Virus record (IMG/VR): IMGVR_UViG_3300044675_001894
Span: 32,858 to 96,857 of that record
Strand: one strand, 5' to 3'
Source: a virus
DNA: 64,000 nucleotides
Positions 51,634 to 59,416 of this stretch are shown piece by piece. How positions within the stretch are numbered: the first letter of the stretch is position 1; each line of letters opens with the position of its first letter. Made by a program: the position numbers and the translations under genes. The notes under the pieces were generated by a model. It was not told the DNA's origin. It did no database searches and saw nothing but the letters and a program-made list of their open reading frames with translations.

Positions 51634-51881
51634 GATGGAATTCTAAGGTACGTACCTACTGGAATCTCATTAGGAAACTTAACTTGAGGGTTAAGATTAG
51701 CAATACGCCAGTATTGACTAGGGTCTCTATAAATACGTGTGGCAATATTGTCAAAAGTATCACCAGACCTAGATACATATGGGGTGTACTCTTCTGATGA
51801 TATTTGTTTAGGAATAGCAAGCAACGTAGAGGTACTTGGATCCCTGTAAGTCGTGTAGCGTGATGAGGAATTAAGAGCCAT
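51630..51881 (-). CDS. LysM-type tail/baseplate protein, gp53/gpX-like
   Basis: 83 residues. EYTPYVSRSGDTFDNIATRIYRDPSQYWRIANLNPQVKFPNEIPVGTYLRIPS is a LysM domain, which in contractile tails (gpX, gp53) joins hub to tube. Overlaps the hub gene by four bases and the next gene by eleven. Confidence 0.88.
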   Translation of the reverse strand: MALNSSSRYTTYRDPSTSTLLAIPKQISSEEYTPYVSRSGDTFDNIATRIYRDPSQYWRIANLNPQVKFPNEIPVGTYLRIPS

Positions 51882-53517
51882 TTTCTAACTCCGCTATTTC
51901 TGTGTCTCCATACTTTTTACCATTCATTGAGTCTGCCATGAACCAAATTTCTCCATAAAGCATTGACTGCTTTTCTGCTACACCTACTTGAGGCGCTGTA
52001 ACACTTCCAGTAGCACTTTCTAGTGTAAAGAAAACCGTGGCTTTTATTTTATATTTAGCATTAGACGCTCTATCAAAAGATTTAGAAGTGGTATCTTTTG
52101 GGTTTTCAATCTTAAAGGTAATCGTGTCTCTACCTTTACCCACATCGGTCATATTGCATGTTCCATTGATAGTTGTTTCAAATGCTGTTTGATTAATACC
52201 ATATGCAAGATTAGTTGCAGGATCACCTGACGTCCTACCTAAATAGGTCATCAGTATATGAATATGTGGAGTAATTGTTCCCTTTTTTTCTTTTGCCCAA
52301 GTTTTAGTAGACTCACTAAAAGAAACACTTACTTTCAAATCCGTTGTACCATCTCCGTCATCATTAAAGATTCTAAATGCATTTAAAACGTATGCATCTT
52401 TAGTAGTAAAGAATGATTGTAAGGTTTCGTAATCTTTAGTTAAGTCTTCACCTAGTTTTTTAAGAGCCTTATTTTCAGCAGTTTGATCGGTACCTGAAGA
52501 ACCATCAGAACCAAATGCAGTAGTGGCATCGTAATCTTTATACAAGGTAGTAAGGTACGTATCTTTATTAGCAAATCCAATATACATTGCTTGCATCTGT
52601 ACTGATATCTGACACTGTGTTGGAACCATTGCCGTATTAAACTTATTAAATACAACTGCCGTGCTAGTTATAAACCCTTCAACCATAAAACTAGAAGAAA
52701 ACACAACACGTATTGGTTGAGCAATTAAAAACGCTGAGTTTCCAATGTTCGTTCCTAAAAAGATTTCAGTTTTACTCTTATCAAAAGGTATTTCTTTATC
52801 CTCTTCATCCTCCGTACCCCCTCCAGGGTTTGCAAGGTTGTAAGCAGACGTAACTTCTCCTGCCCGTGTAACAATTGCTTCTATCAATCCTTTATTCATC
52901 CCTTGACCAATAATTTGATCAAAGACCATAAGGTCGGCAAGTACCCCAATATCTGTAACCCATGACTGGTCATAAGGATTGTCTTCAAATCCTATAGTGG
53001 TCTTTTTTGGCCTTGATGGGTGCCCACCACCTGAGTTTGTAATTACTTCTCTTGATATGTTTGCTGCTTTTTCATTTTTTACAACTTTTCCGTTGTTGTT
53101 TCTGTAAGAACCACTAACCAACTCTGCTTCTCTGTTGAACAGCAGATCAAATGAGAAGTTTGCATCACCAGGGATTGGTTGAGTAAATTGAAAAGGATCC
53201 TGGTTTTGCCACATTTGAATGTCATTACGGGCAGAAACCATTCTGGTTAAAGTGTCTGGATTAAATTGAAAATGAAGCCTACGATTATGTAAAAGGCTGT
53301 CTGCTCCCAAAGCGTCACCATATGCAGATGTAATCATCTTCATGTAGCCACGTTGTATTTTGGTAGTACCCTCTGGACCTATCGCAGCATTTTTATTTAC
53401 ATCGTTAGGCCATATAAACTTTGGGTTATCTTGTGTTGTCCTATTTGAGGCTTTTCCAATACCTGGCTCATAGTTTCCAAAGTTATAAAATTGGTTTGTT
53501 GCATAACGATCAGCCAT
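51871..53517 (-). CDS. baseplate/tube-initiator protein
   Basis: 548 residues. NRRLHFQFNPDTLTRMVSARNDIQMWQ...FSFDLLFNREAELVSG recalls the tube-protein N-terminal fold of contractile injection systems (FQFNPxxL ... FxLxFxRE). The rest (PIRVVFSSSFMVEGFITSTAVVFNKFNTAMVPTQCQISVQMQAMYIG) fits the same class. Long charged loops lie between. Position between LysM hub protein and tape measure supports a tube-initiator role; the exact homolog is not established. Confidence 0.75.
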   Translation of the reverse strand: MADRYATNQFYNFGNYEPGIGKASNRTTQDNPKFIWPNDVNKNAAIGPEGTTKIQRGYMKMITSAYGDALGADSLLHNRRLHFQFNPDTLTRMVSARNDIQMWQNQDPFQFTQPIPGDANFSFDLLFNREAELVSGSYRNNNGKVVKNEKAANISREVITNSGGGHPSRPKKTTIGFEDNPYDQSWVTDIGVLADLMVFDQIIGQGMNKGLIEAIVTRAGEVTSAYNLANPGGGTEDEEDKEIPFDKSKTEIFLGTNIGNSAFLIAQPIRVVFSSSFMVEGFITSTAVVFNKFNTAMVPTQCQISVQMQAMYIGFANKDTYLTTLYKDYDATTAFGSDGSSGTDQTAENKALKKLGEDLTKDYETLQSFFTTKDAYVLNAFRIFNDDGDGTTDLKVSVSFSESTKTWAKEKKGTITPHIHILMTYLGRTSGDPATNLAYGINQTAFETTINGTCNMTDVGKGRDTITFKIENPKDTTSKSFDRASNAKYKIKATVFFTLESATGSVTAPQVGVAEKQSMLYGEIWFMADSMNGKKYGDTEIAELENGS

Positions 53518-56222
53518 TAGTAACTCCTCATAGCAGCACGCTTAAGATCTTGGGTCATTATCTTGGCAACTTCCTGAGCGGCACGTTGAGCATCAGCAAC
53601 GTTACTACCTGTGCTTTGGATATAAATGTTTGGTGCAATAGTAATACCACCGCCTGAAACTACTGTAGTTCCTCCCCCACCACTACGCATAGGTGTTGTA
53701 GGGTCACCTGTAGTAGGGAGGTTCATGCTTTGGGCGATCTTCTTACTTTGCGCCATAGCACCTGGATCTATTCCATTTTTCCAATCGCCCTTAACATTCC
53801 ATGGGCTTAAGTTGCCACCACCGTAAGTAATACGTGCGGCTTTAATATTTATCTTTGGATCAAACAGTTCACCATCTTCAGAGATGCCAAATTGCTTACG
53901 GCGAGCCTCTCCTAAATAGCCTTTCATGTTTATTTGGAAGAGACCGTAGGAGTCATCAACAGGTCCAACGTTTCTTACAGAAGGGATCCAACGTGATTCT
54001 CTGTTGGAGATAGCAAGCATCTTCCAAATATCTTCTCTTTTAAAACCACGGCGTAAAAGGATCTCAGCAATAGATCGTGGGTCCATAGGACTACCAGTCG
54101 TAACAGACCCTGATGTTTGAGTTGATGTACTAGCGGACCCGATGTTACGAACACGCTTACCAGTCATCATGCGTCCGCCGCCACCACCCCCTCCACTTAG
54201 TCCTGTAGCGGCTTTAAAAGCCATGACTTGCTCACTAAGCCCCATTTGGCTAAATGAAGGAACTGCGCCACCACCGCTTGATTTCATTAAAGCATCAGAA
54301 ACACCACCATCTGAAGACATTCCTTCAAACTTGCTGTTTGGGTCAAACTGTTCTGCACCAGCAATAGTTCCCCATGGAGCGCCTGCTTTTTCGTATTGCC
54401 TTCTACTGTTTGGTAGTTCTGCTGGCTGTACGTGCCAAGGTTCATCGTTAACATCCGCAAATGTCTTTAGACCATACTTAGCCGCATTTTGTTGAACCCA
54501 TGCAAGGTCACCCGTAAGGTCAGCCGCAAGTCCAATTTCGTGCATAGACATTCCTGGAGGAGCCGCATCGGCTACACCTGAGTTTTTCTTCCAGTATGCA
54601 CCATCCCAGAAAGTCCCTGTCTTTTCTGATGTGCGTGAGTAACGTGACAAGAACAAAGTCCGCTGTTGTGCACTTGAACGAAACCCACCACCAACAGAAA
54701 CGTTGGGGTTATCTTGCATCATCTTTTCAAGACGCTGTCTAAAGGTTGTATTTAAACTGTTTAAAGAAGATGAAGTCTTTCTAGTGGTGCTTACAGTGGC
54801 ACCTTTATTATTACTCTTTGTTTCAGTACCATCACCTGTAAAAGCACTACCAAACATGGTAAGTCCACTAGCCGCTAAACCAAGACCTAGTGGGGCACCA
54901 GCACCAGTAAACCCAATTGCTGCTCCACCACCCATCATTGCCAACCCAGCAACGCCTTTAAGTGCACGCATACCAATAGAACCACGTGTAGAAATACGCT
55001 TACCAATAAGACCTGACGCCATTTCTTCCATAGCGGTCTTTAACTCAATCAGCGCTTGAGTGTTCTTTTCCATTGTTGCAAGGTTGTCTTTTTGACGGTT
55101 GTAATACTTCTCATCACGCAGTTCTGACAAGCGAGTAGTCTCTTCACGCTGTGTAGCAAAGTTGGCTTCAATACCCATGGCTTGGCGTTGTGCTTTGTTC
55201 TCAGGGTTATACATACCCTGACGACCGCCAGTTTTCTTTTGGAACTGTACGTTTGACTGAGCGTACTGAAGAACAAGGTCTTGCATGTCCTCAGGAACAC
55301 CCATAGCGCTCAAACGAGCACGGGTCATAGATCCTTGTTGCATAGCGCCCTGTACAGTTCGTGCATTGGTTAAACCAGCACCACGGGTAATACCTTGGAA
55401 TACCTCGGTCATTGAACGTTGTTTACCACCAATGCCATACAAGCCTGTACCAAGAGTCATGGTCATACGGTTGTTTACTTGTGGTGATGCAAGTGTTTGA
55501 AGCATCTGAGCCATTTGGTCAGTGCTAAATGAATAACCAGATACGGCTCGCATACCTGCTACGGCATTGGCTTGTGTGCTTGCTTGAATACCTGTACGTG
55601 CCTGTAAGGCTAAAAGGCTATTGATACCGCCAGCACCTAAACGTGCACCCTGTATTCCTTTTCTATAATCGTTGTAATACTGCTGTTGGCTGATACCTTG
55701 TGTCTGCTGGTACAGAACAGCCAATTGATCGTTCTGTAGCATTCGTGGGTATGCAGAGTTAGTGCGGGCATCAATACCACCCAGTATCTGCCCACCCACT
55801 TGCATTGCAGTATTTGCGGCACTTGCATAACCCGCACCTCCACCACTGCCAAGAGCACCACGCATGTTGGCAAAGAAGCCACCACCGCCACCACCCATAG
55901 CGGCGGCAGAAGCAATAGGAGCACTACCAACTTGTGCTTTGGATGAAGCGATCGCTTGAGCGATAGCCCCGCTTGAAGACATTGCGGAAGTAGAAGAAGC
56001 ACCAGTCTTACCAGTTGCATTTTTAAGTGCGTTTGCAAAAGCATTAATTTGTGCAGTTGCTTTATCCAAGCGTGCAGAGAACTTATCAACAAGTTTAGGA
56101 ACTTGGGCAAGTGTTAAAGCGGCATCACCTTTACCTGCTGTTGGGGCAGGGACAAACGAGTCAACAGCAGAGCCACCAAACGCCCCACCACCAATGTTCG
56201 CTTCATTAGGCATTTCCGCCAT
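53517..56222 (-). CDS. tape-measure/tail lysin with M15 peptidase and transglycosylase domains
   Basis: 901 residues. N-terminal Ala/Gly/Ser-rich part (about 1-370) with coiled segments, a hydrophobic patch near 430 (MRALKGVAGLAMMGGGAAIGF), then a VanY-type M15 peptidase (about 505-600: GGFRSSAQQRTLF, SMHEIGLAADLTGD, EPWHVQP, the zinc His/Asp/His set) and a lytic transglycosylase (about 735-850: ISNRESRWIPS with the catalytic Glu, DDSYGLFQINMKG). These would cut peptide and glycan during DNA entry. Length suits a tape measure for a tail of moderate length. Confidence 0.88.
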   Translation of the reverse strand: MAEMPNEANIGGGAFGGSAVDSFVPAPTAGKGDAALTLAQVPKLVDKFSARLDKATAQINAFANALKNATGKTGASSTSAMSSSGAIAQAIASSKAQVGSAPIASAAAMGGGGGGFFANMRGALGSGGGAGYASAANTAMQVGGQILGGIDARTNSAYPRMLQNDQLAVLYQQTQGISQQQYYNDYRKGIQGARLGAGGINSLLALQARTGIQASTQANAVAGMRAVSGYSFSTDQMAQMLQTLASPQVNNRMTMTLGTGLYGIGGKQRSMTEVFQGITRGAGLTNARTVQGAMQQGSMTRARLSAMGVPEDMQDLVLQYAQSNVQFQKKTGGRQGMYNPENKAQRQAMGIEANFATQREETTRLSELRDEKYYNRQKDNLATMEKNTQALIELKTAMEEMASGLIGKRISTRGSIGMRALKGVAGLAMMGGGAAIGFTGAGAPLGLGLAASGLTMFGSAFTGDGTETKSNNKGATVSTTRKTSSSLNSLNTTFRQRLEKMMQDNPNVSVGGGFRSSAQQRTLFLSRYSRTSEKTGTFWDGAYWKKNSGVADAAPPGMSMHEIGLAADLTGDLAWVQQNAAKYGLKTFADVNDEPWHVQPAELPNSRRQYEKAGAPWGTIAGAEQFDPNSKFEGMSSDGGVSDALMKSSGGGAVPSFSQMGLSEQVMAFKAATGLSGGGGGGGRMMTGKRVRNIGSASTSTQTSGSVTTGSPMDPRSIAEILLRRGFKREDIWKMLAISNRESRWIPSVRNVGPVDDSYGLFQINMKGYLGEARRKQFGISEDGELFDPKINIKAARITYGGGNLSPWNVKGDWKNGIDPGAMAQSKKIAQSMNLPTTGDPTTPMRSGGGGTTVVSGGGITIAPNIYIQSTGSNVADAQRAAQEVAKIMTQDLKRAAMRSY

Positions 56223-56225
56223 ACG

Positions 56226-56393
56226 TCAGTCTCCAGATTTACGCCATTTGCCCATTGCAGACCAGTAGCGCCTTTGGCGTACCGTCATATTTTGTAAGTC
56301 AGTGAGCGTGAAGCCCTTGTAAACCGTGGCGATCAGATCGTATTCCCAGTATATATGAGTTAGATTAACCAAATAAAAGGGATGCCCAATCAA
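56226..56393 (-). CDS. small tail-assembly protein, overlapping the gene upstream
   Basis: A 55-residue frame from TTG 56393 (IGHPFYLVNLTHIYWEYDLIATVYKGFTLTDLQNMTVRQRRYWSAMGKWRKSGD) that shares 29 bases with the end of the upstream gene in the +1 frame and ends four bases before the tape measure. Content (aromatic, WEY, LTxxQxMxxxxRRYW) resembles the second product of tail-assembly-chaperone gene pairs. It may start at TTG or be reached by programmed frameshifting near TCCCTTTTATTT. Confidence 0.7.
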   Translation of the reverse strand: MIGHPFYLVNLTHIYWEYDLIATVYKGFTLTDLQNMTVRQRRYWSAMGKWRKSGD

Positions 56394-57147
56394 GCGCTAG
56401 AACCATTGGTTCACCACACGTGGCGCATTGGGCATTCACCTCCCCTACGACAGGTCCTGGCTGGTTGTCCAGTAGGAGTTTGACGAGGTTGGCTCGGTCT
56501 TTTAGACCCAATCCCTTCGCCCAATTCTCAGCATTTTTAATGTGAGTGCTGGTGACACAGCGAGCAATCATAAAAGTGTTTTGCTCTGCTGTGCTTTTTG
56601 CTTTCTTGGCTACAAACTGGCTATCGCCACCTGTAGGAAGACGGAACTCTATCTCAGAACCATCGGACAACTTACCTAGCAAAGGTTTGTGTACGTCTAG
56701 ATCAGTCTTCTTGTTTTCAAATTCATCCATAGAAACAATAACGTCATTGGATGCACCGCATGCATTACAGGTAACTTGGTACTCACGGTTTTTTCCATAG
56801 GTGGCTTCAACAACCCCTAGAAAAAGCAAGTCACGATCACCAATAATAAGGTTGTCAATAACTGATGGGTGATTGGCAATTACCATAGAACCAATAGATA
56901 CAACTGCTCGCTTTAACAGCGTTGACATGTACTCGGCGTAAACCAGACTGCGGTTATCTAAGGAAGCCAATGCTTCTTCATCAAAACCGTTCAGTTCACG
57001 AACAATAGCCGTGGTGTCCCATGACCCAAGTTCGTCATTGAAAACACCACGGATAAGTTCAACTACCGTGTTTGGCGCTGGCTTCATTTCTGGAATGTCA
57101 TCTTGAATAGCCGAATTGATGGCGTCAGCCTGTTGTTTTGCGTCCAT
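56365..57147 (-). CDS. tail assembly chaperone-like protein with two zinc knuckles
   Basis: 260 residues. LNGFDEEALASLDNRSLVYAEYMSTLLKRAVVSIG ... NLIIGDRDLLFLGVVEATYGKNREYQVTCNACGASNDVIV, then a C-terminal CATCGEP. The two CxxC pairs about 100 residues apart could form a zinc site. By position (after tube, before tape measure) it is the tail assembly chaperone or a T4 gp26-like hub factor. SD AGGAG. The end overlaps the next frame. Confidence 0.78.
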   Translation of the reverse strand: MDAKQQADAINSAIQDDIPEMKPAPNTVVELIRGVFNDELGSWDTTAIVRELNGFDEEALASLDNRSLVYAEYMSTLLKRAVVSIGSMVIANHPSVIDNLIIGDRDLLFLGVVEATYGKNREYQVTCNACGASNDVIVSMDEFENKKTDLDVHKPLLGKLSDGSEIEFRLPTGGDSQFVAKKAKSTAEQNTFMIARCVTSTHIKNAENWAKGLGLKDRANLVKLLLDNQPGPVVGEVNAQCATCGEPMVLALDWASLLFG

Positions 57148-57184: not shown

Positions 57185-57820
57185 TTATTTGGTATCAATG
57201 TTAGCGATGTCTGTGTCGCTCCATGCGATGTAGAAACCTTCGTGGTGAACTGTCATTGATTGGATCAGGATACCATTGTCTCCAGCGTTCAAGTCAGTGA
57301 GTGCGTAAGCGCCAGGCCATGCGTTGAAAAGTTTAAATGCAAACTTAACGTTACCTGGGGTGATGGAGTCACTCTGGGTGCCACCGTCATACTGGTACTT
57401 CAAAGCACCGCTGTTCAATTCACTTGCGGTATGTGGGTGATCATAAACACGAACCACGATGTCACAACGGTAGTCTCCGTCGCCCATTGCAAGTCCCTGT
57501 TCTCCAGAAATGCCGCCGCCCAACCATGCATGGATGAACTTTTGCCACTTCCACAATTGGTCTTGCCCAGCAAATGCTCCACGTGCAAAAGACACAGGAG
57601 CAAAGTCTGACTGAGCAACCATCTTGTGTGGGTGGGTGTTCATTCCGCCTTCACGGTAGGAGATGACTTCGTTGGTTACTGAGATACCACTTACCTGAGC
57701 AAAGCCGAGTTCGCCAATTTGGCTAAGGTTATTAGCCAAGTTGCCATCAGCCGACTTTGGCGAGATGCTCACTCGGAACTTAAAGTTACGGAGTGGATCA
57801 GTGCGTAGTGTAGTTGCCAT
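57185..57820 (-). CDS. tail tube protein
   Basis: 211 residues. DPLRNFKFRVSIS ... LGFAQVSGISVTNEVISYREGGMNTHPHKMVAQSDFAPVSFARGAFAGQDQLWKWQKF is the tail tube fold of contractile phages (T4 gp19-like, with the GL/GISxxxEVxxYREGG strand). Polymer of hexameric rings inside the sheath. SD AAGGAG; directly downstream of the sheath gene. Confidence 0.93.
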   Translation of the reverse strand: MATTLRTDPLRNFKFRVSISPKSADGNLANNLSQIGELGFAQVSGISVTNEVISYREGGMNTHPHKMVAQSDFAPVSFARGAFAGQDQLWKWQKFIHAWLGGGISGEQGLAMGDGDYRCDIVVRVYDHPHTASELNSGALKYQYDGGTQSDSITPGNVKFAFKLFNAWPGAYALTDLNAGDNGILIQSMTVHHEGFYIAWSDTDIANIDTK

Positions 57821-57838: not shown

Positions 57839-59416
57839 TTAGAGAGTTCCAGCGGAGTTTCCGCCAGCCCACTGAGTGAGGTTGATTACAACGAATTCGG
57901 CTGGGTACTGCAGTGCAATGCCAACCTCAATATTTACGTAGCCATCTTCAATAGACGATTGTGTGTTATTTGTAGAATCACAAAGGATGTAGAACGCACT
58001 GTCTGGGTTTGAACCCTTCAAGTTGCCCTTTGCCCAGAAGTCGGTCAAGGTGCTTGACAAAGCAATCTTGATACGGCTCCATAGACGCTCATCGTTTGGC
58101 TCAAACACAGCAAATTGTGTTTGATCCGCAAGAGCAACACGCAAGTACGAAAGGGTACGGCGGATTGGGATGTACTTATCTGGACGATTCTTTGCCAAAG
58201 TGCGAGCACCATTGATAATGGTTCCGCCTCCTGCAATCGTACGGATGCAGTTAACATGGTTAACGTTGTACAAGGTTCCTTGATCAGCATCTGTAAGAGT
58301 TGCTACAAGACCAAATACGTTCTGTAGATCCAAGAAGTAACCAGCAGGTGCTTTAGCAACACCACGGAGACTTTCTGAACGTACATACGCACCAGCAACT
58401 GCTCCACCTGTGTAGGTGTCACGAATAGCCGTTGGACCACTCTTCGCTGGGTCATACATCTTCAATGCTGGGAAGTACACAGCACCGTAGCCACCGTTGG
58501 TGGTGCTGTAACTAGCAATGGCAGTCTGCATGTCAGCCTTAGTTGCCGCATTCAAAGGGCAGTCAATGATAACAAAGGCGTCTGCACGTGCTGCAGCGTA
58601 AGAAAGGGCTTGGTTGATACGGGTGCTGCTGGTTTGTCCAACGAGGTTAATCAACAAAGGACCATTTACAATGTCCAAGTTGGTTACGCCAGTTGCCCAC
58701 TCAGTGTCATCGCTTACAGCACCTGGGGTAACTGCGTCCGAACCACCAGTCAATGCGAAGGAAGTCTCATAGTCATTAAGACCAATTCCCGAAACGGTAA
58801 GTGTAGCGTTGCTTGCAATCGTTGCAGGTGTTCCTTGCAGTTTTACATACGAAGAATAAAGTTCAAGAACAGTCTTGTAGTAGCGACTTGATGAAGCATC
58901 AAACGATAGTTCTTGCCAGCGTTCTACTTCTACTGTTGAACCAGAACGTGTCTGACTTACAGTAAGTGCAAACAAAGTGTTTGCTCGGATTTTTGGTGCT
59001 GTTGACAAATCTGCCAAAGTGTTTGGGTCAAATGAAATGCTTACTGAGAGGTTGTCTCCCCATGCACCCTTTGAAGCGGCTTCCAAAACAAACATTGTTG
59101 AAGCGGCTGATGCGCCAGTCAATGTTCCTTGGAAAGTGTATGACGATGCTACTGCGGTAGTATCAAGCACTCGTGACACATAGGCGTCACGTCCACCGTT
59201 AGCAAAGTAGTGGTAGATGGCATAACCAAGGTCATAAGTATTTGAGATTTCTCCATACTTAGCCTTGTAGTCGTTCCAAGAGGTGATCAATGTTGCTGAT
59301 GCTGGACCACGTTCTGCGTAGCCAACAAAGGCAGCGGCAGTAGTAGCGGCACGAGGGGTTACATTGCTGGTAAATGGAGTCTCACGTACGTAGACTCCAG
59401 GGCGGTCGTATGCCAT
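57839..59416 (-). CDS. tail sheath protein
   Basis: 525 residues. MAYDRPGVYVRETPFTSNVTPRAATTAAAFVGYAERGPASATLITSWNDYKAKYGEISNTYDLGYAIYHYFANGGRDAYVSRVL is the N-terminal sheath signature. The C-terminus KIALSSTLTDFWAKGNLKGSNPDSAFYILCDSTNN...DGYVNIEVGIALQYPAEFVVINLTQW matches the conserved sheath core. It contracts to drive the tube through the envelope. SD AGGAG. Confidence 0.96.
   Translation of the reverse strand: MAYDRPGVYVRETPFTSNVTPRAATTAAAFVGYAERGPASATLITSWNDYKAKYGEISNTYDLGYAIYHYFANGGRDAYVSRVLDTTAVASSYTFQGTLTGASAASTMFVLEAASKGAWGDNLSVSISFDPNTLADLSTAPKIRANTLFALTVSQTRSGSTVEVERWQELSFDASSSRYYKTVLELYSSYVKLQGTPATIASNATLTVSGIGLNDYETSFALTGGSDAVTPGAVSDDTEWATGVTNLDIVNGPLLINLVGQTSSTRINQALSYAAARADAFVIIDCPLNAATKADMQTAIASYSTTNGGYGAVYFPALKMYDPAKSGPTAIRDTYTGGAVAGAYVRSESLRGVAKAPAGYFLDLQNVFGLVATLTDADQGTLYNVNHVNCIRTIAGGGTIINGARTLAKNRPDKYIPIRRTLSYLRVALADQTQFAVFEPNDERLWSRIKIALSSTLTDFWAKGNLKGSNPDSAFYILCDSTNNTQSSIEDGYVNIEVGIALQYPAEFVVINLTQWAGGNSAGTL

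Follow-up and report, generated by a model that had tools for sequence, protein, structure and literature searches.

The window, a 64,000-nucleotide stretch of a 96,857-base virus record, carries on its minus strand a series of tail genes in the order sheath, tube, chaperone and tape measure. The tail sheath protein (57839–59416) matches PF17482 (E = 2.3e-7) and PHROG_23 (E = 2.7e-47), and the T4 gp19-like tail tube protein (57185–57820) matches PF06841 (E = 2.1e-22). A 901-aa protein (53517–56222) is presumed from its position and length to be the tape measure protein; residues 492–598 of this protein form a VanY-type D-Ala-D-Ala carboxypeptidase domain (E = 2.7e-8). Behind it, a 548-aa protein (51871–53517) gave no match at E = 1 in either Pfam or PHROG, and no tRNA genes were found within the window. 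Between the tail tube and tape measure genes lies the gene of G (56365–57147, with the TAA stop at 56365–56367), a 260-aa putative tail assembly chaperone. Overlapping its end is a 55-aa ORF with a TTG start (56226–56393), which is open from 29 nt before the G stop to 139 nt after it; the ORF list and a frame check bear out the sequence-only reading that this frame is +1 (equally -2) to G. Its last 49 codons (56229–56375) make up the putative T extension, which is conserved at the protein level and ends at a TGA (56226–56228), 3 nt before the ATG of the tape measure gene. The candidate +1 slip site, CTT_T (56376–56379), consists of codon 257 of G and the next base.

G belongs to PF12322 (T4_baseplate), the family of T4 gp26 and gp51 (E = 2.3e-13; 50.8 bits against a curated cut-off of 24.5), and also matches PHROG_150 (baseplate hub; E = 7.9e-15). 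A predicted structure of the 260-aa protein (mean pLDDT 90.8) had 61 matches in BFVD at E ≤ 0.001, with annotations such as baseplate hub or T4-like, including gp26 of Aeromonas phage 25 (E = 1.9e-6). Among solved structures, a sequence search with G gave one chance-level match (E = 0.18), and a fold search with the model gave none at E = 0.001.

A search with the G protein identified 54 viral contigs and seven phage records, i.e. six from Streptomyces phages (five phages, BRock being present twice) and one from an uncultured phage, of which four were examined. A profile search added 80 of 336 further viral matches as well as 5 bacterial contigs. Among the 143 loci, including the window, 7 were dropped for lacking a stop in the fetched DNA; the remaining 136 encoded 100 distinct proteins after removal of 36 duplicates, and 94 after 6 more with identical last 150 residues had been merged, with Alone3 left out. 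Candidate +1 shift sites were retained even among proteins with about 30% identity. Since one locus (L092) ends at a contig edge, the length of the extension was counted in the other 93.

By our estimate, an open stretch of about 46 codons is unremarkable by itself, and the evidence for a coding function is its conservation. The +1 frame remains open past the G stop in all 94 distinct loci, extending for 127–241 nt (median 145) in 93 of them and to the contig end in L092, whereas the other frame past the G stop has a median length of 32 nt, with single loci reaching 392 nt. In the window itself, the -1 frame closes 5 nt past the G stop, and the window falls outside the -1 heptamer class described below. 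The ratio of nonsynonymous to synonymous change in the extension was 0.37 in the +1 frame, compared with 5.3 and 6.4 in the other frames (23 sequences); for a second clade (16 sequences) the values were 0.39 against 4.4 and 10. The relatives share an extension core, roughly Y.EY....W.L....LT.RER..W. As judged from these sequence comparisons, the +1 extension is under purifying selection and evolves as protein.

Each of the 94 distinct loci has a codon prone to +1 slippage close to the G stop, and the loci could be divided into two classes, UUU_C (65 loci) and CUU_YUA (29 loci, including the window). The distance to the stop is 12 nt in all 29 members of the CUU_YUA class, while in the UUU_C class it is 9–12 nt in 60 loci and 18–21 nt in the other 5. 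In the latter class the base after UUU is C in 65/65 but the encoded residue can be R, L, Q or P, the next codon being CGN in 43, CTC in 14, CAR in 6 and CCN in 2. Elsewhere in the genes of this class, phenylalanine is encoded by TTC 258 times and by TTT 138 times, with TTT_C occurring 15 times; in the 16 genes with more than 60% GC the corresponding figures are 75 TTC and 6 TTT, yet TTT is present at all 16 slip sites. One or the other site occurs in the last seven codons of 100/100 sequences, compared with 7.4% of the 22,705 windows taken elsewhere in these genes, a control that gives scale rather than a clean test since the motifs were picked after the sequences had been seen.

In the CUU class, CTT_YTA is constant (29/29) but the codon before it varies (TCC in 20, TCA in 7 and GCA in 2), and TCC_C is therefore unlikely to be the slip site. 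Since the G gene of the window has another in-frame CTT_T at codon 108, the signal must comprise more than CUU_U, and other context must matter. Two candidate stimulators were set aside. A rare-codon pause at UUA is not supported, because TTA and CTT are both common elsewhere in genes of the CUU class (137 and 185 of 776 leucine codons, respectively), and single RNA folds showed nothing unusual in five sequences (z from -1.14 to 0.74). Among 23 distinct near relatives, codons 250–257 of G (56377–56400) show almost no synonymous change, their synonymous difference of 3.2% being the lowest of any 8-codon window and comparing with 46% over the whole gene; codons 232–239 are also low (10.5%). Overlap with the extension explains just part of the block at codons 250–257, because the block starts upstream of the slip site.

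We found that a -1 heptamer is present, by sequence, at the same place in most of the other PF12322 phages examined. In cyanophage-type loci, of which 80 of at least 591 were taken, 55/55 distinct proteins (81 loci) had T_TTT_TTC close to the stop of gp26 together with a -1 T frame. Most of these loci also have an ATG 5 nt past the gp26 stop, so that separate initiation is possible there as well. Among 12 isolates in which a small frame follows a single gp26-like gene, T_TTT_TTN was present in 9, in two of which it had first been noticed; the three without it are Vibrio phage K469 and the Ackermannviridae HMGUkp5 and Coodle. In these three (L247, L251 and L253) a small -1 frame lies behind the gp26-like gene and may be a separate gene. 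Six further isolates, checked afterwards, all contained the heptamer; P10VF lies close to RL38J1, however, and YB07 has a T frame of poor likeness. Unannotated T-like -1 frames were also observed behind gp26 in CC2 (L260, after 1226), with no start before +89, and in Aeh1 (L248, after 2217). Both of these phages and EniLVp02 are classed as Straboviridae. In seven T4-type gp26 genes, a T-like frame was not seen by eye.

T4 gp51 consists of a G domain and a T-like C-terminus. Profile alignment of the -1 T set, from which the heptamer-less K469 and both Ackermannviridae were omitted, gave 97.7% (E = 1.5e-12) with the gp51 C-terminus and 89% (E = 2.3e-6) with the +1 T set. The direct comparison of the +1 T set with the gp51 C-terminus was weak (15%, E = 0.0018), and control alignments with the N-terminal part of gp51 gave E values of 0.09 and 0.16. 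The gp51 profile was built from 13 of 17 sequences, three near-copies and the interrupted L153 being left out. Independently of this, PHROG_634 joins the cyanophage protein with residues 147–246 of gp51; two +1 T peptides did not match PHROG_634, and the window's 55-aa frame had no PHROG match. When 105 G domains were placed in a tree, a branch separated each of the +1 classes from the remaining sequences (CUU_Y, 100/97; UUU_C, 90/89), and both classes were distant from the T4 group. The rows of gp26 and gp51 (100/98) fall among the -1 rows, beside Aeh1, K571 and EniLVp02 (94/85, not a strong fork). Since the tree is rooted at its midpoint, the order of events read from it is tentative.

Taken together, these data suggest that the locus very probably encodes a G/GT tail assembly chaperone pair, with GT made by a +1 slip at CUU_U. 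Homologous T domains situated after a -1 heptamer in other PF12322 phages, as judged by sequence, support this assignment. What the DNA and its comparison with relatives show is the open frame, the protein-level conservation of that frame, the retained slip codon, the order of the genes and the protein family; ribosome slippage at this site, its rate, a stimulator and the binding partners of G and T are the parts of the model that we infer. The majority of ribosomes would end at TAA 56367 and release the 260-aa G. In a minority, the tRNA-Leu on CUU (56379–56377) would re-pair on UUU, moving the ribosome one base forward; the slipped ribosomes would bypass the G stop and add 49 residues to residues 1–257 of G, giving a GT of 306 aa. 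By analogy with lambda, G may bind the tape measure protein and T may recruit tail tube subunits. The earlier proposal that the chaperone is made as two products is thus supported by the gene position, the PF12322 assignment, the conserved downstream frame and the slippery codon, and the shift that it placed near TCC CTT TTA TTT, in either the +1 or the -2 direction, is likelier to be a +1 shift at CTT_T.

The same downstream frame could also be reached in other ways. The 55-aa frame might be a small gene in its own right, with reinitiation or an internal TTG allowing its translation, in which case free T would be produced but no fusion protein. The window's frame contains TTG at two positions relative to the G stop, -26 (56393) and -5 (56372), and in near relatives the conserved DNA block begins right at the first of these. 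Records of the four Streptomyces phages differ, BRock, LuckySocke and GiJojo being annotated with two separate genes here and pSt2308 with none, and in K469 and the two Ackermannviridae an overlap or short gap without the heptamer is all that is seen. However, with the core taken to begin about 14 residues before R.R..W, at least 17 of the 94 loci (the window not among them) contain no ATG, GTG or TTG upstream of it, and the alternative start raised in the sequence-only reading, TTG 56393, is absent from divergent members of the same class such as L088, L097, L101 and L118. No Shine-Dalgarno-like stretch was seen by eye before TTG 56393, in agreement with that reading, and no ribosome binding site is evident; moreover, a separate gene would give no reason to keep a slippery codon. 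We therefore regard separate translation as unlikely.

Fusion by a -2 shift, as in Mu, would lead to the same frame as +1, but the tRNA of UUU or CUU would then face UGU/UAU or CCC/CAC, with which it does not pair, and the bases concerned are not conserved; because of these mismatches the -2 option fits poorly and is highly improbable. Slippage of RNA polymerase on a T-rich stretch could in principle yield the fusion as well, and CCCTTTTATTT is present at the site. The longest run there is only four T, however, and the relatives keep an in-frame codon rather than a run, which makes this route extremely improbable.

Chaperones made by frameshifting are a familiar feature of long-tailed phages, and passages of a 2016 review except T4 while naming -1, -2 and +1 cases (PMC5009743). 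Lambda gpG/gpGT, as described in the same passages, resembles the window in having a short and a frameshift-extended chaperone right before the tape measure gene; lambda uses a -1 shift, in contrast to the +1 shift proposed here, and the likeness is one of arrangement. The tail chaperone shift of the haloarchaeal myovirus HSTV-2 is called very likely +1 there (PMC5009743), although this is an archaeal virus and can be likened to the window by description only. As proposed for the window, Listeria phage PSA and SPP1 gp17.1 are described, in the source text available, as having a +1 shift near the stop of a phage tail gene; these shifts occur at a CCC codon before the stop in capsid or tail tube genes, and the SPP1 chaperone is listed with a putative -1 shift. 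The PA-X site of influenza A, UCC_UUU_CGU, involves a +1 slip on UUU followed by CGN (PMC3498833, in part), as in 43 of the 65 UUU_C relatives, but it operates on eukaryotic ribosomes, and the window itself has CUU_U rather than UUU_CGN. In Pseudomonas phage Adele and the Vandenendeviridae, the portion of PMC12846349 available describes, on the basis of conservation, a downstream frame misannotated as a separate gene; that shift is -1 at a GTTTTT motif, unlike the +1 shift of the window. A chaperone frameshift is also reported for mycobacteriophage ErnieJ (cluster C), its direction not being given in the part of the source available.

Extracts of PMC10885494 and PMC12846349 attribute the T4 gp26/gp51 chaperone arrangement to Vladimirov, Gautam and Davidson 2022, the latter also crediting Vladimirov 2022 with poly-T signals, and because of this prior art we do not claim gp26 and gp51 as G and GT as new. 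T4 shares the family PF12322 with the window's G, but its two forms come from two genes, whereas the window has one gene and a +1 frame. The cyanophage-type gp26 with a short gp51 belongs to the same family and carries a homologous T domain in another frame, behind the -1 heptamer T_TTT_TTN rather than a +1 slip codon. In the literature searched, which covers few subscription papers, no +1 shift in a PF12322 chaperone was found, and a forward frameshift in this family appears to be undescribed so far.

We lean towards the view that one chaperone family has switched the direction of its shift at the same place in the gene, with -1 at U_UUU_UUN in the cyanophages and several others of the T4 group, +1 in Streptomyces phages and the branch of the window, where the site is UUU_C or CUU_Y, and none in T4, where the fused gp51 took over. 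This may also explain two oddities noted in the accessible text of a 2010 study (PMC3037559), i.e. a cyanophage gp51 without its first 200 residues and the absence of gp51 from Aeh1: the short cyanophage gp51 would correspond to just the T half, and an unannotated -1 T-like frame is present in Aeh1. The +1 reading would supply a product that is missing from a phage group in which some members have been isolated. If it is true, bacterial phages would also have the UUU_CGN class of motif that has been described in eukaryotic viruses, and these phages would offer many natural +1 sites, UUU_CGN among them, for asking what makes bacterial ribosomes slip forward.
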